From the NCBI GenBank assembly GCA_027923505.1, contig BROI01000017.1:310001-374000 (forward strand): a DNA stretch of 64,000 nucleotides. Reading direction: 5' to 3'. The translations under genes and the position numbers were made by a program. Of this stretch, positions 11,532 to 47,612 are shown piece after piece; positions within the stretch are counted from its first letter, which is position 1, and each line of letters opens with the position of its first letter. This DNA comes from Mayamaea pseudoterrestris (lineage: Eukaryota; Bacillariophyta; Bacillariophyceae; Sellaphorales; Sellaphoraceae). Under the pieces are notes generated by a model. That model had not been told where the DNA came from. It did not search any database and saw nothing but the letters and a program-made list of their open reading frames with translations.

Positions 11532-12181
11532 CGAGGTGGCCGGTTCATGATGACGTGTTTAGCAGGTTTAATTTTTTTGAGCATCCCTTTGATATCCATT
11601 TTTGCGTGGCCAGCGAACAAGGCCATGATTCGCTTAACTTATAGGGAGTTCAGCAATTAGCAACAATTGGACGCCATAGTTGTATCAATGCTAAATCGCG
11701 AAGCTAAAGTGCATTGCCAACTTGGTCAATCAACCAGTGATGGTGATGATGAAATGACCTACAAGCTTAAGATACGATTATTCCTCTTTTGCCATTCTGA
11801 GTGTTTGCTCATTCTCATAGTTTGATATAATGATGTTAGGCAAACATGGGAGCGTACTCGAGTTTAAGGGAGTACTCCATAGTTTACAGTCTATAATTCG
11901 GTCGTGTTTGTTTATTTGTACATTGAATACTTATCATGAAATGACTCAGATACGCTCATTGATGCCTTACGTCAGCGTTTTAATTTCGATGGCGAGGCCG
12001 TTTGCCAGCGGATACCATCAACCATCAGCCCCACACGATGACGGCCGTTGCCTTCCATCGCTCGTAGCCCCCTGCCTCCTCCCTCCAACCTGCATCCAAC
12101 CCTTTTGTTCTGTGGCAGCGAAGTAAGATTTTGTCTCATCAGTTGCCGCTAGCCTCATCCATTTCGCCATCATTCGCCATC
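11532..12181. other. Intergenic region 5' of the SWW-repeat protein gene
   Basis: 650 bp without a supportable gene. The distal part carries bZIP-type elements (see 11942-11974). The 3' end is C-rich just before the ATG at 12182. An open frame ending before 12130 has no recognisable content. Confidence 0.5.
11942..11974. promoter_or_regulatory. CRE/AP-1-like bZIP elements upstream of SWW-repeat gene
   Basis: TGACTCA at 11942-11948 and TTACGTCAG with ACGTCA at 11969-11974, the latter about 213 bp before the ATG at 12182. ACGTCA and TGACGT are the CO2/cAMP-responsive half-sites described for a diatom beta-carbonic anhydrase promoter. Function here is inferred from resemblance and from similar elements before the neighbouring carbonic anhydrase gene. 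Confidence 0.4.
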
Positions 12182-13054
12182 ATGCAGAAGAACGTGTGTG
12201 CCATCGCAGCCATGACGGCCCTTGTCCAGGGCACCCTGGCCTTTATGCCACTCCATCTTCGCGCCACTGTGCGTTCTAGTACATCGTCGAGCTTCATGTC
12301 CAATGGCGACGAGTCCACATCATGGTGGGGGCAGGCAGGTTCATTCAACGATGAACAAGTACAAACCTATGTAACGCCGCGCCGATCCAAACATGGCGCT
12401 CTTTACGACGGAGCTGATTCCATTATTGATTTAAGTAGATGGGACGATGGCACCTACGTCTATGACGAACCCTCCTATCGCAGCAGCACTGGCAGCGACA
12501 GCTCTTCCCGCGAGCGAAGCCATGACACATACGCTTCCTTTAGTCAACCATCTGATCGCAGCTACAACAATCAATACGCATACGCCGACGACCCACGCAC
12601 CTATCAATCATATTCTGGCTATGGCAACCGTCAAAGCGAGTTTTACGACGAGTCATCCGACTATGGCAAGAATTATTACGAAGAGCCCTACTTTGCTAGT
12701 GGTTACTCTGGTGAAAACTCTCGCAATCGCTTTGAATATGACGACGGCCATTACAATAGTCGACAATACTCAAATCAGAACCGCCAACGCTCGGGAAACA
12801 ACGATGAGTCCAGCTCATGGTGGGGCCAAAGTGCCGTGGTGAATGAGAATCAAGTGCAGACTTACGTCGGCAGCAGCGACTACTACCAGACTGACGCGCG
12901 CCCAGTGACGGAGTCCAACTCGTGGTGGTCGCAGGGAAACGTTTACAATGAGCAGCAGGTACAAACCTACACGCGGCCGTCGGCTGGTCAGTACTATGAG
13001 CCAATGCGAGATTACTATCGCGATGAGCAGCGAGAACCACAATACTACTACTGA
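12182..13054 (+). CDS. Plastid-targeted, disordered Tyr/Ser-rich protein with three SWW-QVQTY motifs
   Basis: Single exon, 290 residues from the ATG at 12182 (the frame upstream has no earlier ATG). The N-terminus is a signal peptide ending VQGTLA|FMP, the A-F cleavage pattern of complex red plastids, followed by a basic Ser/Thr-rich transit region. The rest is low-complexity and probably disordered, rich in Tyr, Ser, Asp, Asn and Gln. Three copies of SWWxxxx[VS]xNxxQVQTY start near residues 48, 212 and 247; S, W, W, N, Q, V, Q, T and Y are invariant. The same motif occurs three times in the tail of the carbonic anhydrase encoded next door on the same strand. A disordered, multivalent, plastid-targeted chain with spaced aromatic motifs is the architecture of pyrenoid linker proteins such as green-algal EPYC1 and diatom PYCO1, though those motifs differ. 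A linker role is inferred, not shown. No enzyme domain is present. Confidence 0.85.
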   Translation: MQKNVCAIAAMTALVQGTLAFMPLHLRATVRSSTSSSFMSNGDESTSWWGQAGSFNDEQVQTYVTPRRSKHGALYDGADSIIDLSRWDDGTYVYDEPSYRSSTGSDSSSRERSHDTYASFSQPSDRSYNNQYAYADDPRTYQSYSGYGNRQSEFYDESSDYGKNYYEEPYFASGYSGENSRNRFEYDDGHYNSRQYSNQNRQRSGNNDESSSWWGQSAVVNENQVQTYVGSSDYYQTDARPVTESNSWWSQGNVYNEQQVQTYTRPSAGQYYEPMRDYYRDEQREPQYYY

Positions 13055-13474
13055 GTAAATACAGTCGACCCCATATCCATCATAATCCACATTACTATTC
13101 GTCTCTTTGTTTACTTCTTTCGTCACTATCGAAGTACATGTAGTCGCTGCAAGGTGAGTTGTACAAGATAGCTTGGCCAAACCCTTTGACGTCGGTCCGG
13201 CACTCGCGGCTGACGTCACTAAGAGGTGCGGTTGGCGATTTTGAAAAACGATCACCATCATGACGCTAGCGGCGCTGCCGTCAAACAAGGAGTAGTGCAG
13301 CAAGACGACAGAGCGCGCCGACACTTTCTCCCTTGACAACGTTTTTGGGCTCTTCAAAGACCAGGCACTCGTACCAAAACCTCTTACCGTTTAGCAATTA
13401 ATCACCTCAAGCTGTTTACAAGAGAAGTTGATTTTTTAGAGCCAGGGACGCAATTAACCACTCTGGCATTAACG
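13055..13474. other. Intergenic region 5' of beta-carbonic anhydrase gene
   Basis: 420 bp with no gene. It contains a cluster of three TGACG-type elements (annotated separately) and an AT-rich stretch before the ATG at 13475. Confidence 0.5.
13187..13266. promoter_or_regulatory. Cluster of CRE-like elements (TGACGTC, TGACGTCA, TGACGC) upstream of carbonic anhydrase
   Basis: TGACGTC at 13187-13193, the full palindrome TGACGTCA at 13211-13218 and TGACGC at 13261-13266, that is 288, 264 and 214 bp before the ATG. Three TGACGT/TGACGC-class elements control the CO2/cAMP repression of the pyrenoidal beta-carbonic anhydrase gene ptca1 in Phaeodactylum via a bZIP factor. The resemblance in motif class, number and gene family is direct; CO2 control of this gene is inferred. 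A full TGACGTCA also occurs upstream of the gene at 30488-32167, so the motif alone is not specific. Confidence 0.5.
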
Positions 13475-15667
13475 ATGAACACGAGGCAACTGTTGCTATG
13501 CTTTGCCGCAGTCTTGCAGGCACGCTATGTATCTTCGTTTCAGCCCCAGCCTTTATTATCGCATCGATTAAGAATGACAGAAGTAACAATGGCGTTGAAT
13601 GCTGAGAGCGACGAGAACTTTTCCGATATTCTAAAGGCCAATCAACAATGGAAGAATCGAATGCTAGCCAACAATCCCATGTATTTCAACATGATGAATA
13701 AGGAACAAGACCCAAAGTACTTGTGGATAGGTAAGTTGCATGCAGGCACTTCGCGACGCTCGCTGTTTGCTAAATTTCGAGAGTCACTCACCAGCCTATT
13801 ACCACTCCGTCCCAGGATGCACCGAAATGCGAATACCAGCGCATGATATTATTGGGCAAGATGCGAAAGATGTATTAGTATATCAGAACATGGCAAACAT
13901 GGTCTTGACGAATGACGCCAGCCTTCTGGCGGTACTGGATTATGCTGTAAAATCAAACATACAAGACGTTTTCGTTTGCGGCCACTATGACTGCAACAGC
14001 CTTCGATCCATGGCGATGCAACACCACCGGGGAATGCCTCTTGGAAACTGGCTGGGGAGTGTCCAGGACGTGTAAGTACACAATGATCATTTTTTGAGAG
14101 TGAATGAACTAGATCAACTCACACTTTTCTTCCATTTTCTCTCAGCTACCGACTCCATCAACAAGAATTGGACGCCATTGTCAATTCGGAGCAGCGACAT
14201 AGGCGGCTGGTTGAGCTCAATTCTCTTGAACAGTGCCGCAATCTGCAAAAGACTGGACTTTTGCGAGACAGCGTTCGTTTCCATGCATGCGTGTTTGATG
14301 CAGGCACTGGGGATCTGAAGCAAGTTAGTCAAGAGCCCGCTCGCGCAACGCACGACGCGCCGAGTGTTTCGACGAAAGAGCCTTTGAAGAAGGATGTGCC
14401 GTTGACACAGATGCTGCTGGGTAAGGCGAAACAATCGGCTGCCGCAGCAGACAATACGACGAGTTCAGACCCATTGCGAGCAACCCAGCAAGAATCTGCA
14501 ACGAAAAAGTTAGCTTCCGCAGAAAAGATTCCCTTGTCCAAAGTATCCCAAACTCCGACATTAGCGAAAGACTCAGCCGCTGTCCAATCTAATGAAAGGT
14601 CTGGCGCACCTCAGGAAATTCGACCCTTTTACGCAGAGAGGGGAAAGCGACCGTTCGCTGGCAATGGCAACGGTAACAAGCCAACGGAAGTCACCCAAAC
14701 AAATGGAAGTGTTGACGAGTTAAAAATGGAAGAAGAAGATGAACAGCGGGGATCGCGGTCGCAAGATAGGCAGCAACCGATACAAATGGAAGTAGCGGAT
14801 GAACAGCGGGGATCGGAATTACAAGCTAGGCAGCAACCGATGGAATATGTCGATCCTCGATGGGACCCTGAACTTGATCGGCAGCCAGAGCAGTATGACG
14901 ATTTTCAATACGACCAACCTCCATTTGACGACCGGGAAGATTTCCCGCCAATGCAAGGCTACCCAAGGGTAACGCCTGAGCCACAACGAAGCAGAGCCAA
15001 GCCAGACGCAGGGAGTAACGGAGCTTTCGACGAGGCCAATTCTTGGTGGGGTGAAACCTACGTCGTCAACAAAAACCAAGTACAAACCTATGTTAAGGTT
15101 CGTGAACAAAGTGACGCATATGATGATCCATACGACTTGGACGAGGCTGGGAACCGGCCTTTGAGCCCAGAAGGAATGAGGCTGCTAGTCGATGAAAAGA
15201 ACTCTCGTCGAGAAAGCGTTCCCTTAAATGATCCCGCGCAAGAACCAATGGGATCTTGGTGGAACAAAGGCAACGTATTTAACAAGGATCAAGTTCAAAC
15301 TTACGTAAAGCAGTCTCTTCGTGACATTGAGGAAGACGATAGACGCTTCGATGATTATGACGAATACAATAGTGGCTTGGACTATGCTGATGCTCTGGAC
15401 GATTACCGACCACCGCCGGAAGAATATGACCAGCGCATGTATGATACCAGAGAACAAGATCTCGGACCGCTTGGCTTTAATGAGGATTACCAAGACCAAA
15501 GGCAACAACTTCCTCGTCCGCCTCGCGACGAGCGAACAAAACCAACTGGTATAAACTTAACTGGAAGTGACGGTCCGGATTCATGGTGGGAAAAGGGAAG
15601 AGTCTATAACGAGGACCAAGTGCAAACTTATATAAAGAAAAGGCGAGATCCAGATGAGTCGAGATGA
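13475..15667 (+). CDS. Plastid beta-carbonic anhydrase fused to a disordered tail with three SWW-QVQTY motifs
   Basis: Three exons: 13475-13730, 13816-14071 and 14146-15667, 677 residues. Introns are 13731-13815 and 14072-14145, both GTAAGT...CAG. The N-terminus is a signal peptide ending RYVSS|FQP, the complex-plastid pattern. Residues ~55-235 are a beta-carbonic anhydrase, which interconverts CO2 and bicarbonate: KYLWIG/CTEMRIPAHDI, VYQNMANMV, VCGHYDCNSLRSM. The three zinc ligands (Cys, His, Cys) are present. The usual CxDxR Asp is Glu, and the Gly-Gly after HxxC is Asn-Ser, so activity may be altered. From ~240 on the chain is charged and disordered, with a 20-residue internal tandem duplication. 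SWWxxxxVxNxxQVQTY repeats start near 470, 541 and 650, the last close to the C-terminus. The motif is shared with the upstream gene, suggesting a common partner or compartment. Confidence 0.9.
14725..14843 (+). repeat. 60-bp tandem duplication within carbonic anhydrase tail
   Basis: Two adjacent copies with period 60 bp; the shared block GATGAACAGCGGGGATCG occurs at offsets exactly 60 bp apart (starting about 14738 and 14798), followed by CAGCAACCGAT in both. In protein it gives DEQRGSxxQxRQQP twice. This is a recent in-frame expansion of the disordered spacer. Confidence 0.8.
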
Positions 15668-30487: not shown

Positions 30488-32167
30488 CTACATGGTACCC
30501 GCAAAATTGGCAGCATCCTTACCATGACTATCCATTTGGTCTGCCTTGCGCTTCGCCATGGGCCATTTGCTCGTAATCTTTACTCGATGCGAAAAGAATT
30601 CAATTCCACCATCGCCTGTAATATCACTATCCCCATACTTGCTCATTGTGTCATATCTGCCCCCGAACGAAAAGGGCTCTCGAGGCACTGGAATGCCAAT
30701 GTTTATGCCAAGCATGCCAGCGCGGAAGCGATCCGTGAACCAGTCGGCATGCGCTCCACAGCTCGTGTAGATGGATGCTGCATTGCCAAACGGATTGGCG
30801 TTTTCAATCTCCACAGCCTCTTCCCATGACTTGCAGTTGTAAATGCTAAGAACGGGTCCAAACACTTCTTCCTTCATTGTCTTGTCTTTAGAAGACGAAT
30901 GCAAAATTATAGTTGGTCCAATCCAGTGACCATTGCCGGGTTGTTCCCAACTGCGTCCATCCAAAAGCAGTTCCGCTCCATCGTTCTCCACCGCATCCTT
31001 AATGTACCTATGAATCTTCATGTACGAAGCTTCGTCAATGACTGGTCCCATTTCTCCCGGTCCAGAGCCTGGTTTAATCTTCGTCGCGCAGTCCACAATG
31101 GCTTGAATCAATGATGGCTCAGTCTCGTTGCCATTGCTACCATCATTGACGTGCAGCAGTACACTGGCTGCCATACATCGCTGGCCTGCGCATCCGGCGA
31201 ATGATACAGTGATATCAGACGCTGCCGTGGAAACATCACAGTCGCTCAACGCGACCAAATGGTTCTTGGCGCCTCCCAAAGCAATGCAGCGCTTGTGCAG
31301 CCTGTTGCATTCCTCCTTGATGATTCGCGCCACTGGACTTGATCCGACAAACGTGACCGCCTTGACGTTTGGGTGGCGCATCAAGGCCTGCACCGGCGCT
31401 GCCGCACCTTGCACGAGTTGCACGACGCCCGACGGAACGCCGGCTTGCGTCAAGAGTTGCATTGCGCGGTGCATGGTCAAGGGCACCTTTTCGCTCGGCT
31501 TGAGCACGACGCAGTTTCCCATGACCAAGGCGATTGGCAGCGTCCACATTGGCACCATGAACGGAAAGTTAAAGGGCACAATGCTTGCAACCACACCAAG
31601 TGGACGTCGATCGTCCCGACAGTACACCCCGCCCGAGCTCACTTGCATCAATCTGCCAGCCGCCAGTTGCGGCAAACTGCAGGCATACTCGACAGTTTCG
31701 TTTCCCTTGGCGACATCCGCCAATGCTTCAGTGATATTCTTGCCATTTTCTTTGACAATCAATTGCGCTAGCTCGTTGGCGTGCTCCTGGACGAGAGCGT
31801 GGAATTTGAGCATGATTGCAGCCCGCGTTTTGATGGTAAGCTTGCTCCATGACGCAAATGCTGTTTGAGCGGCAGCGACGGCCTTGTCGACATCTGTTTC
31901 GTTGGATAGAGCAACCTTGGCAATCACCGCGCCATCGGCCGGATTGTGAACGTTCATGTACTCCTTGGTGGACGGAGGTACGAACGTGCCAGAAATGTAG
32001 TTGTCAATCGTGACAACATTCGACTCCGTTTTGGCATGGCATCTTTCGCTCATATTGAATATTTCGACTTTATGAGAAATATGCTTTGCATTTATAGCTA
32101 TGGTGTATCCTGCTTGTACTGTAATGCGAGCAAGAACGGATCCGTATTTTGTGTGTCGTTCCATCAT
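30488..32167 (-). CDS. Methylmalonate-semialdehyde dehydrogenase (acylating), mitochondrial
   Basis: Single exon, 559 residues from the ATG at 32167; the core starts near Met39 (32053), and the first 38 residues could be a mitochondrial presequence. ALDH-fold hallmarks of the MMSDH branch: NYISGTFVPPSTKEYMNVHN, VVASIVPFNFPFMVPMWTLP, VTFVGSSPVARIIKEECNRL, GGAKNHLVALSDCD, and the catalytic Cys in FAGCAGQRCMAAS. The SxPFNFP and GGAKNH blocks distinguish it from ordinary aldehyde dehydrogenases. The enzyme converts methylmalonate or malonate semialdehyde with CoA and NAD to propionyl-CoA or acetyl-CoA in valine, pyrimidine and inositol catabolism. A perfect TGACGTCA lies 27 bp upstream of the ATG. 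Confidence 0.93.
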   Translation of the reverse strand: MMERHTKYGSVLARITVQAGYTIAINAKHISHKVEIFNMSERCHAKTESNVVTIDNYISGTFVPPSTKEYMNVHNPADGAVIAKVALSNETDVDKAVAAAQTAFASWSKLTIKTRAAIMLKFHALVQEHANELAQLIVKENGKNITEALADVAKGNETVEYACSLPQLAAGRLMQVSSGGVYCRDDRRPLGVVASIVPFNFPFMVPMWTLPIALVMGNCVVLKPSEKVPLTMHRAMQLLTQAGVPSGVVQLVQGAAAPVQALMRHPNVKAVTFVGSSPVARIIKEECNRLHKRCIALGGAKNHLVALSDCDVSTAASDITVSFAGCAGQRCMAASVLLHVNDGSNGNETEPSLIQAIVDCATKIKPGSGPGEMGPVIDEASYMKIHRYIKDAVENDGAELLLDGRSWEQPGNGHWIGPTIILHSSSKDKTMKEEVFGPVLSIYNCKSWEEAVEIENANPFGNAASIYTSCGAHADWFTDRFRAGMLGINIGIPVPREPFSFGGRYDTMSKYGDSDITGDGGIEFFSHRVKITSKWPMAKRKADQMDSHGKDAANFAGTM

Positions 32168-32485
32168 GGCGAGGTTCTTCCGCGCGTCAAAAATGACGTC
32201 ATTCTATGTCGCATCGGTTCGCAAATAAACTTGCGTCTGACCGTCTCCCGTCAACGAACTTCGGTGAGCGTCGACACGCCCACTCGCTGCGGCATCATCA
32301 TCACAATGGGATTGGACCGGCTGCTGCTGCGTTAATATATATTAACAATCCACGACGGACGAGCCGTAGCGAAGAGGAGACTTACGATTACTTTATAAAC
32401 TCATTGGTACTCGCCCAACGGTAGAAGAGATTAACGATATTTACAGAGCTCAAATACAGCAAAACACTTTTATTTTCTTCAAGAC
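32168..32485. other. Divergent intergenic region with CRE palindrome
   Basis: 318 bp between divergent starts. Contains TGACGTCA at 32194-32201 and an AT palindrome TTAATATATATTAA at about 32333-32346, which could serve as a TATA-like element. Confidence 0.45.
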
Positions 32486-36389: not shown

Positions 36390-38108
36390 ATGATGTTATC
36401 GCACGGACGACTTTACTCGACATTATTCACGGCCATGTTCCTTGCTCTGGGACCATTGCCGTCCAATGCCTTTTCCGTGTCGAAGGTCCGCAAACATGGC
36501 CACGCACCCGCCATTCCTGCTTCCTTTCCGACGACTCCAAAGCCCTTGAACAATATCTCTTTGAACTTGTTTTCGTCGCGACGAGCGGTTCATAGTTTTG
36601 CAACCAGTAACAGCAATCGACTCAAAGTGCGAAAGACGCGCAAGATGATGTTTGCCGCTCTGACGGTACTATTGCGACGCACGCGACGAGCCGTTGCATT
36701 CATGGCGTTTGCCGTTTGCGTTTGGATGAGTCACCAGCATGTCGCGCATGCCAATGTTGTTTCGCAGCAGCAACCAGAGATTGTAGTTTCAACAACCAAG
36801 AATCCGGGCAAGGTGATTGCTGTCTGCGGCGGCGTTGTTTTGACGAATGAACTTTACAAGCGGTCCATGAAGCAGCAAGGAAGTGACGATTCGTTGAGCT
36901 CGCCTGGTGGAAATGATAATGTTGATAATGTATTGACGCGACCGGCGCGGGCCTTGGAGCAAGTGGAACCTTTGCCGACGAAGGAACCATTGATGAATGG
37001 AGACAAGTCGCTCACAAACTCTACCAACGTTTCCACCGACTCGGTCTCGTTTTCCGTCGACAGCAGTACCGACTCGATCACTCAGACTAGTACCAAACTA
37101 CCATCATTACCAAACGAAGACGTCAACATGACCACGGTCCAAAAGCTCCAGCAGAGGGTCGAAAATGCTGCCACCAAGATGGAAGGCAAGCTCCAGGAAT
37201 GGTCGACTCGAAGCTCACCGGCAATCGACTCGCTGCCAAAGCCAACCACCATTTCGTTGCAGCGCACCAGTGCGGGGACTTCAACTAGTAGTCCATCTGT
37301 CGCAAGTGCGACCAAGACGTTGACGAAACCAGTCAAGATTACCATTCCGCCGCTACCGGCAACCGCTGCCAAGCCACGTACGACCATGACAGCTCCAGCG
37401 ACTGCCACGTCTCCGACGGCTCCGTTTTCGACGGCTCTCACGGCAGTCGCTCCGGCGACTGCCGCGGCAACGTCAGTGGCAGCATCACCCGTCAAGTCCA
37501 CGTCTGCGCCAACGTTAACGGAGTTGCCTCTAGCCGTTGCATCTACAATGGCGTCCGTACCTTTAACAACGACACCACCTTCTTACAAGGAAACACCAAC
37601 AAAGCAACCTTTACAAGTGATTGATCAAGACAAGCCAACAGTGAAAGTTGCCGGGAGTGGTGACCAATTACCGCCGCTGAGTGTCATGGGATTCGACGCG
37701 AACGGCCGCGCATTGACGCCCGAGCCAAAGAAAAATAGTAAGGATCGAAAGGAAACCTCAACGAGCATAAGTCCTCGGAAAGGCAGCACCAACAGCCCCA
37801 AGCATGACGCTCTACGAGCAATTGGATTTGGGAATGCTACGCCAGCGACCGAAGCGAAAACCTCTCATCAACAACCATTGGTAGTTAAAGATACGTATCA
37901 AGCTTCGCGCAGCAGTACTTCCTCTTCCGTGTCTTCTGCACCATTTGTCAAATCTGGAGCGGCGACGAATGGTGAATGGAAGGAACGGCCAATCATTGTG
38001 CAGCCAAGGCCACTTGATGAGGAGGTTGCGCTTCAGCAAAAGTATGCTGCGATTGACGATGTTGGGGAGAGGGCATACCAGATTTTGATTGATTTGTCAA
38101 TGATCTGA
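36390..38108 (+). CDS. Plastid protein with second thylakoid-type signal and long Pro/Thr/Ser/Ala-rich disordered region
   Basis: Single exon, 572 residues from the ATG at 36390. A signal peptide ends LPSNA|FSV (complex-plastid pattern), then a basic Ser-rich transit region. A second hydrophobic segment, preceded by RRTRR and ending HVAHA|NVV, resembles a thylakoid (possibly Tat-type) transfer signal near residues 100-125. A short ordered piece follows (KVIAVCGGVVLTNELYKRSM). Residues ~180-500 are low complexity with many TAPATA-like stretches. The C-terminus has a short conserved-looking tail (EVALQQKYAAIDDVGERAYQ). No known domain. It is probably thylakoid-lumen or thylakoid-membrane located; function unknown. 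Confidence 0.7.
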   Translation: MMLSHGRLYSTLFTAMFLALGPLPSNAFSVSKVRKHGHAPAIPASFPTTPKPLNNISLNLFSSRRAVHSFATSNSNRLKVRKTRKMMFAALTVLLRRTRRAVAFMAFAVCVWMSHQHVAHANVVSQQQPEIVVSTTKNPGKVIAVCGGVVLTNELYKRSMKQQGSDDSLSSPGGNDNVDNVLTRPARALEQVEPLPTKEPLMNGDKSLTNSTNVSTDSVSFSVDSSTDSITQTSTKLPSLPNEDVNMTTVQKLQQRVENAATKMEGKLQEWSTRSSPAIDSLPKPTTISLQRTSAGTSTSSPSVASATKTLTKPVKITIPPLPATAAKPRTTMTAPATATSPTAPFSTALTAVAPATAAATSVAASPVKSTSAPTLTELPLAVASTMASVPLTTTPPSYKETPTKQPLQVIDQDKPTVKVAGSGDQLPPLSVMGFDANGRALTPEPKKNSKDRKETSTSISPRKGSTNSPKHDALRAIGFGNATPATEAKTSHQQPLVVKDTYQASRSSTSSSVSSAPFVKSGAATNGEWKERPIIVQPRPLDEEVALQQKYAAIDDVGERAYQILIDLSMI

Positions 38109-40292: not shown

Positions 40293-42827
40293 TTAATCGT
40301 CAAATATTGACTTCATCAACTCTAAAATCTCCTTCGTTTCAGCGTCCAGCGGATTCGCCATTTCTTCCATGGTTGCGCCAAATGTCTGGTCGAATTCTTT
40401 TTTAATGTTTGCCAGATCGTCCTTACTAAAAGCCCCCGAGTCTTTCAGTTGCTTCGCACCCAAGAGCATTTGCTTGACCTTGTCAAGATCATAATTTCCA
40501 TCCTCTAGGTTTAAACCGTCCACTCCAGCCATGCTGCCCATGCTCGCCATCATTTCTTCCATGCCTTCCATCTTCTCGCCATTCTTCATCATCTCCATCA
40601 TATTTTTTTGGACGGCAGACATCATAAGGCCTTCTGCCTTCTTATCGCTAATTTTGAAAATGTCCTGCAGGGACTGCAGTCGAGAATCGAAATCGTCTTT
40701 TGGGTTTGACATCATGGAACCAGCATACGCGCTGTACAAGCTTTCAAGCTTGCCTCTGCCAAGATCGCCCTCATACGTGACCGGAGCAATAACCACGCCA
40801 TCAGCCACAGCGTCATACATGGAAGCCGCATGCATAATGAACTGAATGGCCACATCCAAAGCTTCCACCTGGACCTTTGTGTCCTTTTCCTTTAACGTTA
40901 CAGCGGCAAGGTCAATTATGTTGATTAGCATGCAATTAACGACATTGGCAAAAATTTCGGCCGATGATACCAGGTCGAGATCTGCTTTTTCGCGAGCATT
41001 AATAAGCTTTTGCTTCGCACTTTCTAGATCGAATTCAGGCATGGGCATGTCGCCTGGAAGCGCTTGCACGCGCGGAAATCGGCCTGGAGCTCCAAACGTT
41101 AGCAATTTTGCCAGTAGCGTTGCAAACTCTGGGGCCTCCGCATCCGGTGCAACAAGAACCGCAATATCCGTCTCTCGTCCAGTCTTGTTTCTGTTAAAGA
41201 CATTTTTCAAACCAAGACGTTTCTTTTTCGGCGCTGGTTCCAGCGGTAACTTTACTGGCGCCGGGCTCGGTGCTGGTGCCGATGCTGCTTTTGGAGACGG
41301 CTTCGAGCCATTAAAAATATCCAAGTCCCATTCCTCGTCGTCAACATCCATCATGGATGTTGAGGTTTTTGGACGCTTCGTCTCCGTTCCAGATGCATCT
41401 CCCATAATGAGTCGAAACTGGCGTTGTCGTTCCTCCTCCTCGCGAGCGGCTTTGTCTCGGTACACTTTGAACGCCAATCCTCCACCACCAATGGCGACAA
41501 AGGCTGCAGCGGCTGGCAGTGCCTTTTTGACCAAATGGTCTTTGCTTATATTGGGTCTAAAAGTCAAAGCTGCTCTCTTAGCTTTAGGAGCCACCGTTTT
41601 AGACACTGACTTGGCGGCATTAACAGCTTGTTGCTTCGTTTCTTCCAGCTTGCTGGCAGCTTGATGCATCTTCTGGTCAGCTTTTGTGGCAACTTTTCGT
41701 TTCTTCTGGTTAAGTTTGGCAACCTTTGGCTTTGCTTGCTGAACTTTAGCGACAAGCTTGCGTTGAGACTTGGACTTTGGGTTTTGTTCCTTGACACTCG
41801 TCTCTCCATTCTTGGGTGGAATTACCTGCCCGTACTCTTCCAAATTTGCCTCAAACTGCGCCGCCATTTGGGCAGCACGTTCCGTCGGAATTTCTAGTAT
41901 GCAAATTGTGTTATCCTGGTGCGTGGAAAAGTACTCGAGTGGATCTATTCCACGATTGCGCATGTCCTTGGCAATGAGCGCAATAATCTTTCGATTGTTT
42001 CGAAGCCGATACGCTTGAGACTGCTTCGAGTTCCTCGACTGCAAAACGTTTTCTACGTTGAAAGGAGTTCCTGCAACCTCGCCAAGATCAACACCTTCCT
42101 TGTAAAAGGTAGTTTGTCGCTGTCCCTCCATGTCGACGTACGGATCAATGCCTTGCTCCAGTAGATTGCGTTTCAGCTGCTCCAAACCTTGTGCCATTTG
42201 TTCCGCCTTTTTGATTTGCTGCTGCTTATATTCCTGTTCAAACTTGACGCGAGCGCCTTCTCCCTCGGTGGCTTCAATCTCGCGACACTTTTTCGCAAAC
42301 GCCCGAAGTTCATCTTGCTGCACCTTGACTTGACTACGCTTGTATTCCGACATGGCCTCAACAATGGGGTCTCTACTTTCGCCCTTGGGCATGACCATGA
42401 CGGGAGCGGATGCGTGGGCAGGCTGCGGTCGCATGGTGCTCATGGTTACCGCCAAGAACAGTGAGAGTGCAAACGAGAGTTTCATGCAAGCTCGAACGAC
42501 GGACTGGAGTAAGACGGAGGTCCGTTGGAACTTGCGGCTGAGATACCGGCGAATCGCCGATCGCTTTGATCTATCATTATGTTCCGGTAAATTGAAGAGT
42601 CGAGAAGCTTGGAAGACAGTCGAATGGTGATGGAATGATCGTGATGGACTCACTGTCAAACTTGCACCAAAACGTGAATTTGTCGACGAAACGCGCGTTG
42701 ATGGAGCTAGCGAGACCGGTCGCTGTAGACCGGAAAGCTGCTGGAAGGCTTGTACGCCTTTGCCAAGCAGCAATAAAGCGACTACTAGTAGACGACGCAT
42801 CATTCTGTGAACCATCATTTTCGCCAT
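40293..42827 (-). CDS. Large plastid (thylakoid-associated) protein of unknown function with Met-rich C-terminus
   Basis: Single exon, 844 residues, ATG at 42827. A signal peptide LLVVALLLLGKGVQA|FQQ gives the complex-plastid pattern, followed by a Ser/Arg-rich transit region. A second hydrophobic segment ends QPAHA|SAP near residue 140, resembling a thylakoid signal. Charged helices follow (residues ~160-400, with Lys-rich KPKVAKLNQKKRKVATK), then one likely membrane span (KKALPAAAAFVAIGGGGLAF, ~residue 440). Residues ~560-760 form an ordered domain (EKADLDLVSSAEIFANVVNC; LDVAIQFIMHAASMYDAV). The tail is Met-rich (MMEMMKNGEKMEGMEEMM). No known family. Its two-step targeting resembles that of the protein at 36390-38108. 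Confidence 0.75.
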   Translation of the reverse strand: MAKMMVHRMMRRLLVVALLLLGKGVQAFQQLSGLQRPVSLAPSTRVSSTNSRFGASLTVSPSRSFHHHSTVFQASRLFNLPEHNDRSKRSAIRRYLSRKFQRTSVLLQSVVRACMKLSFALSLFLAVTMSTMRPQPAHASAPVMVMPKGESRDPIVEAMSEYKRSQVKVQQDELRAFAKKCREIEATEGEGARVKFEQEYKQQQIKKAEQMAQGLEQLKRNLLEQGIDPYVDMEGQRQTTFYKEGVDLGEVAGTPFNVENVLQSRNSKQSQAYRLRNNRKIIALIAKDMRNRGIDPLEYFSTHQDNTICILEIPTERAAQMAAQFEANLEEYGQVIPPKNGETSVKEQNPKSKSQRKLVAKVQQAKPKVAKLNQKKRKVATKADQKMHQAASKLEETKQQAVNAAKSVSKTVAPKAKRAALTFRPNISKDHLVKKALPAAAAFVAIGGGGLAFKVYRDKAAREEEERQRQFRLIMGDASGTETKRPKTSTSMMDVDDEEWDLDIFNGSKPSPKAASAPAPSPAPVKLPLEPAPKKKRLGLKNVFNRNKTGRETDIAVLVAPDAEAPEFATLLAKLLTFGAPGRFPRVQALPGDMPMPEFDLESAKQKLINAREKADLDLVSSAEIFANVVNCMLINIIDLAAVTLKEKDTKVQVEALDVAIQFIMHAASMYDAVADGVVIAPVTYEGDLGRGKLESLYSAYAGSMMSNPKDDFDSRLQSLQDIFKISDKKAEGLMMSAVQKNMMEMMKNGEKMEGMEEMMASMGSMAGVDGLNLEDGNYDLDKVKQMLLGAKQLKDSGAFSKDDLANIKKEFDQTFGATMEEMANPLDAETKEILELMKSIFDD

Positions 42828-43145: not shown

Positions 43146-45662
43146 ATGTTCAAGAAACTCTTCAACAAGAACAAGAACAAGCTGGGCGGGTCGGCGTCAA
43201 ACTTGGCCGAAGGCGACGGCTCGGAAGCGGGCTTGCTGGACGAACGCTCGGATCGAAACTTTGAACCTGAAAAGACAGCTCCGGCGCTAAAGAAAAAGGC
43301 GGCAGCTCCCGCCAAACCAGCAAAGGCTGCAGCAGCACCGTCGAAATCAAGCAGCAGCAAGCAAGCTCCACCGGCTCCAGCGCCACAAGGTTTGCCTGAC
43401 GCGGGAACTCCGATTAATAGAGCAAAGGATCGGACGGATGCCATTGACAAAGCACGGACTGTGCAGGTATGTTGGGATTCTCTCCGATTCTGTTGTGATT
43501 GCTCGACGAAGTCATTTGTCAGTCTCACATTCGCTAAATGTTTATTCTCGCACCGCAGGTTGGTGGCATTAAATTGACCTACGCATACATTTCATTGCGG
43601 GGATTTTATCCTGATGATCCATTCAAAAATAATCAAGACGCTTACGCCGTCAAACAAGGCGTTGGCAAGGACAAGAACAACATGCTCTTTTCGGTATTCG
43701 ACGGACACGGCAAGGATGGTGATGGATGTGCCATTTACGCCAAGAAACAGTTGCCCGTCAATCTAGCTCATCACTTGGATCGAGCCAAGCCTAAAAAGGG
43801 AACCAAGGACATTAGCAAGGATCAAGTGCAGCAGGCACTGCACCGCGCTCATCTCGATACCAACAAGGGTCTGCACAAGAATCCCAACGTTGATGACACA
43901 CTTTCGGGAACGACTGCCATTTCCATGTATTTCCACGGCAACCGCAATCGCATCACCGTGTCGAACGTTGGTGACTCGCGCGCCATTCTGGGACAGGAGG
44001 TGGCCGGTTCCAATCGACGCGAAGGACCTCGCGCGCTCAAGGCGTTGGCGCTGTCGAGGGATCAAACACCCTACCGCAAGGACGAAAAGGCTCGCGTGAA
44101 GCGGGCGGGTGCCCGCGTCTTGTCGTTGGATCAGCTGGAAGGGTTGGAGCCGATCATTGAAGGAGCTTCGGAGAATGACGAGTCATTGGAACTTGGCGAG
44201 GAATTGGATGAAGGCGGTGACCCTCCGCGCATTTGGGCGCAGAATGGCGATTATCCCGGAACGGCCTTTACGCGATCCATTGGAGACTCGGTCGCCGAGG
44301 ATCTTGGAGTGTTTGCCGAGCCAGAAATGTTGACGCGTGAGGTCTTGCCCGAGGACAAGATACTGATTATTGCATCGGACGGTGTGTACGAGTTTCTTAC
44401 CAACCAGAGCGTGATTGATATTTGCGCCAAGTTTGCTGATCCGCTAGAGGCTTGTCGGGCCGTTGTGGCGGAAGCGTATGAGTTGTGGCTGCAGTATGAG
44501 CTTCGTACCGATGACATTACCATTATTTGCATGTTTGTGGATGAAGTCAAGGGAGGAAGCCGGCGAAGTCTTGGTGACGAGTCGGAGGGATTTTCGACCA
44601 TTCCTGCTCCCATACTTGGAGGCCTGCAATCGGATGACGACATTGATGCTCAAATTCTTACAGAGGGCGCGCGACCTGTCCGAAAGCATGTCTCGAAGAA
44701 GACATCAAAGGCTCTCGAGAAGATGCGTGAGCAAGGCAAGAAGATGGACATGTACGAAGGCGACGAGGACTTTGACTGGAAAAAGCACGCGACAAAGAAA
44801 ACCGCAGAAGAAAAGGCTTCCATTGCGGAAGCCATCAAAGCGTCTGTCATGTTCCGCAATACGAGCGATGAGCAGCGCGAGATGATCTTTGCATGCATGG
44901 AATCTGTCCACGTCAAGGCTGGCACCTGGGTCATTCGACAGGGCAGTGTTGGAGATCGCTTCTACATTTGCGACGAGGGGCAGTTCGAGGTTCGAATTCT
45001 ACCGGACGGTCAGGAGGATCCGACTGGACATGGCGGTCACATTGTGCACGTTTACGATGGCTCGCGGGCGAGGAATTCGCACCCTAGTTTTGGAGAATTG
45101 GCGCTGGTACGTTGTGTGCGGCTTATGGTTGCATGTATCTGTTGCCAGACCGAATTCTGAACATCTTATTCTTTCAACACAGGTCCATAGCATGCCACGT
45201 TCCGCCTCGGTAGTTGCCAAGACGGATGGTCACCTTTGGGCTTTGCACCGAGCCGCTTTTCGCCAAGTGCTCGTCGAGGCCCAGGACCACCGCAAGGAAC
45301 TAAAGAAGGTGCTTGGCAATATCCCATATTTCCAGTATCTGGACTCGGACGCCATTAACAAGCTGGCCACAATCATGGACGAAGTCACCTTTGGTCGTGG
45401 TGAAACCATTACCGAGCAAGGTCGCAAGGGCGAATGCATGCATGTGATTGCCTCTGGTTCATGCTACGGCGTCCAAACGCACGGAAGCGACACGAAGCGA
45501 GTCAACTACAAGACTGGTAGCTACTTTGGCGACGAAATCTTTTCGTCGGATCATGGCAAATACTCAAGAACGGTGGTGACGCTGCAGACTACTGTTTGTT
45601 GGCAGCTGGATCATGAAGTAATGAAGCAAACAATGGGTCCATTGCTCAAGCCTCCATCGTAA
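43146..45662 (+). CDS. PP2C protein phosphatase fused to two cyclic-nucleotide-binding domains
   Basis: Three exons: 43146-43466, 43559-45106 and 45183-45662, with introns at 43467-43558 (GTATGT...GCAG) and 45107-45182 (GTACGT...ACAG), 782 residues. The N-terminus is Lys/Asn-rich (MFKKLFNKNKNKLGG), then an Ala/Pro/Lys linker. Residues ~110-440 are a PP2C Ser/Thr phosphatase: VFDGHGKDGDG and ITVSNVGDSRAIL, TAFTRSIGDSVAEDLGV, IASDGVYEFLTNQSV, supplying the metal-binding aspartates. Two CNBDs follow: HVKAGTWVIRQGSVGDRFYI with SFGELAL/VHSMPRSASVV, and VTFGRGETITEQGRKGECMH with SYFGDEIFSSD. In the first domain the phosphate-binding pattern GELAL...PRSA is intact. A PP2C-CNBD chain with a C-terminal kinase exists in plants; here the chain stops after the second CNBD. 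It is probably a cAMP- or cGMP-controlled phosphatase. Confidence 0.93.
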
Positions 45663-46619: not shown

Positions 46620-47612
46620 ATGGCAAAACAACCATCGAGGACGCTACAAATAGTAACGATACTTGTGTGCACATTAATAGATGTAACACATTCATTTGCT
46701 CCTTCTAATGCGCAGCAATGCCATGCATCATTACGGAGCTGCCAATGTCCGGTCAGCCCTGCTGCACCATGCTTCCCAGCCGCCACAACAATAATTTCAT
46801 CCACGCAACTGTACCTTTTCGACTTTTTCAAGCAGCAATCAGAAACTGAATCGTCAGAGATAAAAATTGAAACCATCGAAGACTCGACACAATCGCAACG
46901 AGCAGACGAACCAGATTTGGTGGAAAAGATCTTTGGTGTATTCTTTGGCAAGCCAGAGGCGAGTCCAATGGGTTTGAAGCGCTTTGGTCGATCGGACTTT
47001 CCGGAACAGTATCCGGCTACCGTTGATACATGGGCCGATCCTGTCGACGGAGACGACAAGGAAGTGGCCTTGCTGCGACCGTTGTTGAAGAATACCAATT
47101 TGGAACGACGACGCCTGAAACTCGCCTATAGTGCCAATGCGAATGGCTGGAACGCGGCGGCCTTTCATAAGGCGGTCGATAAAAAGGGACCGTCGCTTGT
47201 TGTTCTTACTACAACTTCAAATCAGTTAGTAGGCGGCTACAATCCAAAAGGCTGGGTCAGCTACGGAGAAGCGCGAGGTTCGATTGCAGCATTTTTGTTC
47301 GTCAAAAACGCCGACGGATCATTCACCAAACTCCGCAAAGTCGGCGGCCCAAGCTTGGCGCAGCTCGACTATCCAGAGAGTGGCCCAATGTTCGGAGCCG
47401 ACTCTCTCATTGTACCACTTGCCGGTGACAATCCGAAATTGGCGCGAAGCAAGCTCGGGAGCTACTACGAGCGCTTTGCGGACGGATGCAACTCGGTGTT
47501 TGGAGCCAAGCAGGCGTCGGCGCCGCTGCGTGAATTCAAAGTATACCAAGGTGTCTATGGCGAAGGGGAGTTTGTTCCGTTCACTGATGCAGAACCATTT
47601 GCCTTGTACTAG
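46620..47612 (+). CDS. Plastid-targeted TLDc-domain protein
   Basis: Single exon, 330 residues from the ATG at 46620. The signal peptide ends IDVTHS|FAPS, a textbook complex-plastid cleavage motif. Residues ~165-325 resemble a TLDc domain: RLKLAYSANANGWNAAAFHK, SLVVLTTTSNQLVGGYNPKG, WVSYGEARGSIAAFLFVKNA, ending EFKVYQGVYGEGEFVPF. TLDc proteins are linked to oxidative-stress resistance and V-ATPase regulation in animals and yeast; a plastid role is not established. There is a lysine- and acid-rich spacer (~90-130). An AATAAA lies ~30 bp past the stop, in the 86-bp gap before the converging phospholipase D gene. Confidence 0.82.
   Translation: MAKQPSRTLQIVTILVCTLIDVTHSFAPSNAQQCHASLRSCQCPVSPAAPCFPAATTIISSTQLYLFDFFKQQSETESSEIKIETIEDSTQSQRADEPDLVEKIFGVFFGKPEASPMGLKRFGRSDFPEQYPATVDTWADPVDGDDKEVALLRPLLKNTNLERRRLKLAYSANANGWNAAAFHKAVDKKGPSLVVLTTTSNQLVGGYNPKGWVSYGEARGSIAAFLFVKNADGSFTKLRKVGGPSLAQLDYPESGPMFGADSLIVPLAGDNPKLARSKLGSYYERFADGCNSVFGAKQASAPLREFKVYQGVYGEGEFVPFTDAEPFALY

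Follow-up and report, generated by a model that had tools for sequence, protein, structure and literature searches.

Pyrenoids have evolved repeatedly, with unrelated linker proteins. In the diatom Phaeodactylum tricornutum, the beta-type carbonic anhydrases (CAs) PtCA1 and PtCA2 are described as pyrenoidal (PMC7378808), and every Rubisco pulldown contained PtCA1 (PMC10288592). For the linker PYCO1 of the same species, the authors found no homologue outside P. tricornutum; the small-subunit sticker is reported on no other protein except a short PYCO1 isoform, and variants of the large-subunit helix are said to occur in other Phaeodactylum proteins (PMC10288592). Here, we describe a 64,000 nt stretch (the window in what follows) from the genome of the diatom Mayamaea pseudoterrestris (order Sellaphorales; C17:310001-374000), in which two adjacent genes, termed gene A and gene B, encode a predicted disordered Tyr-rich protein and a protein of CA descent that have in common six copies of the motif SWW-x6-N-x2-QVQTY. 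The reading that we favour, plausible yet held tentatively, is that the two products form a CO2-concentrating sticker pair in the plastid, with Rubisco as the likeliest partner.

Two adjacent genes with a repeated SWW...QVQTY motif

Gene A (12182-13054, plus strand) is a single-exon open reading frame (ORF) of 290 codons, and its product is Tyr-rich (11.4% Y), acidic and predicted to be disordered; searches of Pfam, NCBIfam, PHROGs and PDB returned nothing for it. Gene B follows head to tail in the same orientation after 420 bases and consists of three plus-strand exons separated by GT..AG introns: exon 1 (13475-13730) with a presequence (YVSS-FQP) and the start of the CA domain, exon 2 (13816-14071) with the CA active site, and exon 3 (14146-15667) with the end of the CA domain and then an acidic tail of 441 residues (residues 237-677). 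The spliced product is 100% identical over its 677 residues to the database entry P0005, 'hypothetical protein MPSEU_000783800 [Mayamaea pseudoterrestris]'. That A and B are one wrongly split gene was ruled out, because A has its own stop codon, B has its own presequence and the 677-residue product is a separate database entry.

Three copies of the motif are located in the gene A product, A1 (SWWGQAGSFNDEQVQTY, 12320-12370), A2 (SWWGQSAVVNENQVQTY, 12815-12865) and A3 (SWWSQGNVYNEQQVQTY, 12920-12970), and three in the tail of the gene B product, B1 (SWWGETYVVNKNQVQTY, 15041-15091), B2 (SWWNKGNVFNKDQVQTY, 15254-15304) and B3 (SWWEKGRVYNEDQVQTY, 15581-15631), all on the plus strand and all matching SWW.{6}N..QVQTY. 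A first-pass annotation of this DNA had reported six copies in two adjacent genes with nine identical positions, which is exact. The spacers of about 35 to 165 residues that it gave are start-to-start distances; between the copies lie 148 and 18 residues in A and 54 and 92 in B. Shuffling the residues of protein A and of the B tail (n = 20,000) yielded 0 full motifs and 16 bare QVQTY strings, which rules out an origin by chance or low complexity.

The genome-wide searches covered the 30.6-Mb assembly of 41 contigs. The 15-base codon pattern for QVQTY matched 10 times, six of these being the copies described above; at the other four sites there was no WW within 40 upstream codons, and stop codons were present there in three of them. 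Protein queries based on gene A or the motif regions recovered only genes A and B, plus noise at E 1.7 and 3.5, in searches that score good candidates only, such that a much-diverged motif copy could escape. At the sensitivity used, codon-pattern and protein searches rule out a genome-wide motif family, and the idea that the motif acts as a genome-wide pyrenoid address, as in Chlamydomonas, found no support, as only two proteins were found, though diverged copies could be missed. The motif does extend beyond this genome, as it is carried by relatives of gene A; no other protein of this genome was found to have it at the sensitivity used. A viral contig scan with A1 gave no relative among 49 pattern matches. 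For the RuBisCO_large family, the assembly gave no match.

A search of ~5.8 billion proteins retrieved, beside gene A itself, three relatives (P0002, P0003 and P0004) with 46-53% identity, all from metagenome-type sources, and a four-sequence profile search (E up to 10, 2965 candidates) added no further ones. The relatives contain 3, 3 and 2 motif copies. Seven residues (S, W, W, V, Q, T and Y) are the same in all 14 copies of the combined set, while the first Q is kept in 13 and N in 12; the initially proposed pattern, with [VS] at one position and nine invariant residues, therefore describes the six copies of the window and has to be relaxed when the relatives are included, [VS] then also admitting A. 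In the alignment of the four gene A proteins the mean identity to the window copy was 0.74-0.81 in the motif regions, compared with 0.35 and 0.42 in the linkers, 0.49 in the C-terminus and 0.39 in the presequence (region borders chosen after viewing the alignment; motif 2 is gapped in P0004). When short motifs repeated along disordered chains keep their sequence and the linkers between them diverge, this is characteristic of a multivalent binding element. The highest mean identity in gene A, 0.85 and thus above that of the motif, belongs to a 37-residue module directly after A1 (VTPRRSKHGALYDGADSIIDLSRWDDGTYVYDEPSYR, 12371-12481, plus strand), in which 27 of 37 columns are invariant among the four proteins. 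This module has a basic start (TPRR.KHGAL), continues with SIIDLSRWDD.T.VYD.P.YR and belongs to no known family.

Positional subtypes also seem to exist among the copies. Of ten variable motif positions, chosen by us, B1 agrees with the second motif of P0002 at 8 and with that of P0003 at 7, versus 5 with A2 of its own genome; B3 is closest to the third motifs (6 and 5), and B2 is less clear, with 5 agreements each with the third motif of P0003 and with B3. This recurrence of subtypes across genes and species makes the sharing look old, and it suggests, as far as sequence comparison can tell, that position-specific subtypes are older than the split of these species and that the motif has an old common origin in both genes.

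Both products have the appearance of plastid proteins with disordered chains. In the AlphaFold model of gene A, which was based on a four-sequence alignment, the mean predicted local distance difference test score (pLDDT) was 35.1, with 289 of 290 residues below 50 and none at or above 70; there is no usable fold, and the only two short strands, at residues 219-226, have pLDDT <50. A charge-hydropathy analysis classified the mature A protein, the B tail and the tail of a CA paralogue (see below) as disordered and both CA cores as folded. The disordered chains with spaced repeats that had been proposed are thus borne out, by pLDDT for A and by charge-hydropathy for A and the B tail. The gene A presequence (residues 1-41, 12182-12304, plus strand) comprises a hydrophobic start, an AF-x-P junction and an S/T/R-rich stretch; the junction, ASAFAP-like, was set by eye, and its F-x-P is kept in the two relatives that include an N-terminus. 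In 5/5 N-termini inspected (those of genes A and B, P0002, P0004 and the CA paralogue), a hydrophobic start leads into a junction with F at +1 and P at +3, and no second hydrophobic segment was seen in them by eye. Such a start with an F-x-P junction is the usual pattern of diatom plastid presequences, and presequences of plastid type, also claimed in the first-pass annotation, are present on both products as judged by eye.

The carbonic anhydrase domain and the upstream region of gene B

The only Pfam match of gene B is PF00484 (Pro_CA, E 4.9e-25), and the protein matches 33 PDB sequences, which are named carbonic anhydrases. The zinc ligands are kept, namely Cys87 (13818-13820), His142 (13983-13985) and Cys145 (13992-13994), and so is Arg91. 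In place of C-x-D-x-R, however, gene B has CTEMR, with Glu replacing the Asp of the Asp-Arg dyad, a residue that is present in 13/13 bacterial relatives and in the paralogue. The catalytic role of this Asp is well established for beta-CAs. Furthermore, Gln replaces the Arg of HRN, Ser replaces the Gly two residues past the second zinc Cys, and a loop is shortened. At 51 columns that are invariant in the 13 bacterial relatives, which had been retrieved with the gene B core as query, gene B departs 14 times and the paralogue 7 times; the bacterial proteins, each left out in turn, depart 0-6 times. The designation as a carbonic anhydrase consequently stands with regard to descent (Pro_CA domain and zinc ligands) and is weakened with regard to catalysis, given the altered Asp and other conserved residues. 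Judging from the substitutions, the CA activity of gene B may be weakened or lost, and the product may be a weak enzyme or a pseudoenzyme; Glu could partly stand in for Asp. With such an active site, it cannot be taken for granted that the enzyme recruited would be an active one.

Pro_CA matches occur at two places in the genome, gene B and a paralogue on contig 5 (L003, ~814.35-816.04 kb, minus strand) that has the canonical CADAR. The two are 41% identical over 237 residues and have both intron positions in common according to our own gene assembly. Their tails are weakly similar (E 6e-6 when the two sequences were compared directly, composition correction being off): that of the paralogue is 238 residues long, lacks the SWW motif and has three DPND repeats. 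A genome-wide search for DPND[IMV]Y gave 2 matches, both in the paralogue, and this DPND tail is possibly a second recruitment tag.

The CO2 response of PtCA1 and PtCA2 is mediated by the hexamers TGACGT, ACGTCA and TGACGC, which lie between -86 and -42 relative to the transcription start (PMC7378808; also PMC11142338). Three such elements, following the definition and the CCRE1-3 order of PMC7378808, precede gene B within 80 bp, 209-288 bp before the ATG: a CCRE1-like TGACGT (13187-13192, plus strand), the palindrome TGACGTCA (13211-13218, no strand assigned), which contains the CCRE2-like ACGTCA, and a CCRE3-like TGACGC (13261-13266, plus strand). Nowhere else in the window do four such hexamers fall within 80 bases, and the gap between A and B holds the densest cluster. 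Among 20,000 Markov sequences of 420 bases, the ordered triple within 90 bases was found in 9, and at least four hexamers in 80 bases in 4, with spans chosen by us. Upstream of gene A, a single ACGTCA (11969-11974, no strand assigned) lies 213 bp before the ATG, outside any cluster and thus weak. The paralogue has two CO2-element hexamers within 700 bases, 285 and 347 bp before its ATG, one in each orientation.

A possible sticker pair and the alternatives

In the mechanism that we propose, SWW...QVQTY would be a short linear sticker through which A and B gather at a common partner in the stroma of the plastid, the most probable one being the pyrenoidal Rubisco matrix. In this scheme, gene A would act as a multivalent linker with three stickers and one further conserved module, and gene B as an oligomeric CA-fold body with three stickers per tail, resulting in many binding points per oligomer. 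As beta-CAs are oligomers, each particle of the gene B product would display a large number of motifs. It would either supply CA activity at this site or, its active site being changed, act mainly as a hub. Plastid and pyrenoid location, binding, the identity of the partner, the oligomeric state and low-CO2 induction are inferred. The sticker-pair reading is favoured because elements of this kind bind Rubisco in algae and carboxysomes, examples being EPYC1 and its relatives (PMC10473226), PYCO1 (PMC10288592), CsoSCA (PMC10614612) and, by means of folded modules, CcmM (PMC8580825), and a CA gene preceded by low-CO2 elements is an obvious client.

Several observations weigh against it. The motif was detected in two proteins only, the homologues of gene A are three metagenome proteins with no second named species found, and protein searches found no motif-bearing CA outside this genome; a protein search with the tail exon of gene B, among the best 7999 candidates by shared words, returned gene B itself only. 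Gene A is acidic (mature net charge -18), in contrast to the basic PYCO1 (isoelectric point 10.03, PMC10288592). With respect to the upstream elements, shuffled 64-kb windows contained the ordered triple in 17/200 and the cluster of four in 8/200 cases, TGACGT is not enriched in the window (35 observed, 36.7 expected), and a second ordered triple occurs in the window at 32184-32201. Gene A, moreover, has only one hexamer within 500 bp of its start, the second lying at -631.

One alternative, unlikely though worth keeping in mind, is that the motif is homotypic, the WW/Y-rich segments of A and B sticking to one another and any contact with Rubisco or another protein being made via other parts, such as the 37-residue module. 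The aromatic nature of the motif and its restriction to two neighbouring genes would suit such a private pair, the Trp stickers of PYCO1 also drive homotypic condensation (PMC10288592), and conservation in gene A peaks in the module rather than in the motif. Positional subtypes that are kept apart across species nevertheless fit distinct geometries on a folded partner equally well or better.

We also regard it as rather unlikely, yet conceivable, that the partner in the plastid is a different one, e.g., the protein shell of the pyrenoid, a thylakoid protein that penetrates it or an envelope protein, which would place the CA-like protein at the edge of the pyrenoid and not in its matrix. Diatom pyrenoids do have a protein shell (PMC13159521), and neither of the PYCO1 sticker patterns tried matched the genome; no sequence feature, on the other hand, points to a membrane or a shell.

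It appears improbable that gene B encodes a normal, active plastid CA with tail repeats that arose as copies of those in A, the motif being functional in A only. Genes A and B are adjacent and in the same orientation, the B tail has local similarity to A (E 4e-16 by two-sequence BLASTP with the composition correction switched off), and the motif is missing from the disordered tail of the paralogue. A1 and B1, moreover, differ at only 1 of 7 invariant degenerate codons, and their DNA over QVQTY is identical. Over all 15 pairs of the six copies, in contrast, the differences range from 1 to 6 of these 7 codons, and nucleotide similarity between A and B is restricted to short stretches. Nine positions are identical despite synonymous and spacer divergence in most pairs, so the B copies also look constrained, and the altered active site of gene B speaks against an ordinary enzyme. 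A very recent duplication of the whole motif set was ruled out by the codon differences, the closeness of A1 and B1 pointing the other way.

Very improbable is a role as secreted or cell-wall (silica) proteins resembling Tyr/Trp-rich cingulins or biomineral proteins that contain a CA: disordered chains rich in Tyr and Trp are known from diatom silica proteins and both products have a signal-like start by eye, but Phe at +1 and Pro at +3 occur in all five N-termini, and gene A has 3 Lys and no KxxK, silaffin-type proteins being lysine-rich with KxxK clusters. The characterised diatom beta-CAs PtCA1 and PtCA2 are, in addition, plastidic (PMC7378808).

Some further features of the window were recorded. 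A minus-strand aldehyde dehydrogenase ORF (30488-32167) has the cluster at 32184-32201 (TGACGT/ACGTCA/TGACGC-like) in front of its ATG, at a distance of 17-34 bp. Two long ORFs without a Pfam match (36390-38108 and 40293-42827) have plastid-like presequences by eye (SNAFSV and VQAFQQ), a PP2C phosphatase ORF (43538-45160) shows a weak, below-cut-off cyclic-nucleotide-binding match, and the N-terminus of a TLDc-domain protein (46620-47612) resembles a plastid presequence (THSFAPS).

Comparison with linkers and carbonic anhydrases of other systems

PYCO1 resembles the pair described here in being a disordered diatom protein with unevenly spaced Trp stickers and Tyr motifs and differs in having the stickers KWSPRGGS and AAEWGSMNQ on a basic chain (PMC10288592). 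KWSPR/Q and EWxSMN stickers were not seen when the A and B sequences were read directly, and the patterns KW-S-PR-GG and EW[AG]xMN had 0 genome matches, where exact patterns are weak evidence and the KWSPQ form is not covered. A direct PYCO1 homologue was ruled out by the exact patterns and by the acidic character of gene A. The first-pass annotation had called the motif unlike known linker motifs, in agreement with the PYCO1 stickers of PMC10288592 and with a text search, in which QVQTY, NQVQTYV and SWWGQ appeared in none of the papers covered. In our assessment, the motif pair is not of the PYCO1 or EPYC1 families.

To our knowledge, PtCA1 and PtCA2 have no repeated sticker tail, and gene B differs from them in the CTEMR of its active site. 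The likeness is that of diatom beta-CAs with TGACGT, ACGTCA and TGACGC upstream (PMC7378808). Relative to the Chlamydomonas system, the motif was found here on two proteins only, the algal lineage and the Rubisco form are different, and binding to Rubisco is hypothetical. The motif of Chlamydomonas also differs in sequence from SWW...QVQTY. What the two arrangements have in common is a motif that is repeated in a disordered linker, in that case EPYC1, and that is also found on other pyrenoid proteins (PMC10473226). Since the motif is located on a disordered linker-like protein and on a CA-fold protein, it offers a concrete and cheap test of how a CA might be placed in a red-lineage pyrenoid, for which the motif copies supply the peptide sequences.

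Two carboxysomal proteins come into consideration on the side of gene B. CsoSCA of alpha-carboxysomes is likewise a beta-type CA in which a disordered segment binds Rubisco and recruits the enzyme; unlike gene B, it uses an N-terminal peptide and not a repeat-bearing C-terminal tail, is an active enzyme and is accompanied by the scaffold CsoS2 with different motifs (PMC10614612). CcmM of beta-carboxysomes corresponds to gene B in combining a CA-like folded oligomer with three binding modules on flexible linkers into a multivalent hub, whereas its CA-like domain is of the gamma type and its modules are folded SSUL domains, as opposed to short motifs on a disordered tail that follows a beta-CA domain in gene B (PMC8580825). 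Gene B and CcmM are not related by descent. It is a bold and, in our estimate, unlikely extension of the sticker-pair reading that gene B is a pseudo-CA scaffold, oligomeric and with three Rubisco stickers per subunit, that works with linker A, is induced by low CO2 and would constitute an independent eukaryotic counterpart of CcmM. Titles and abstract starts in the literature searched mentioned no sticker common to a diatom linker and a CA, although Nam et al. and Shimakawa et al. (both 2024) could hold related proteins. If the hub reading is true, this would be, within that literature, the first sticker of a red-lineage pyrenoid that a linker has in common with a CA, and a degenerate CA serving as the hub would be a striking parallel to CcmM.

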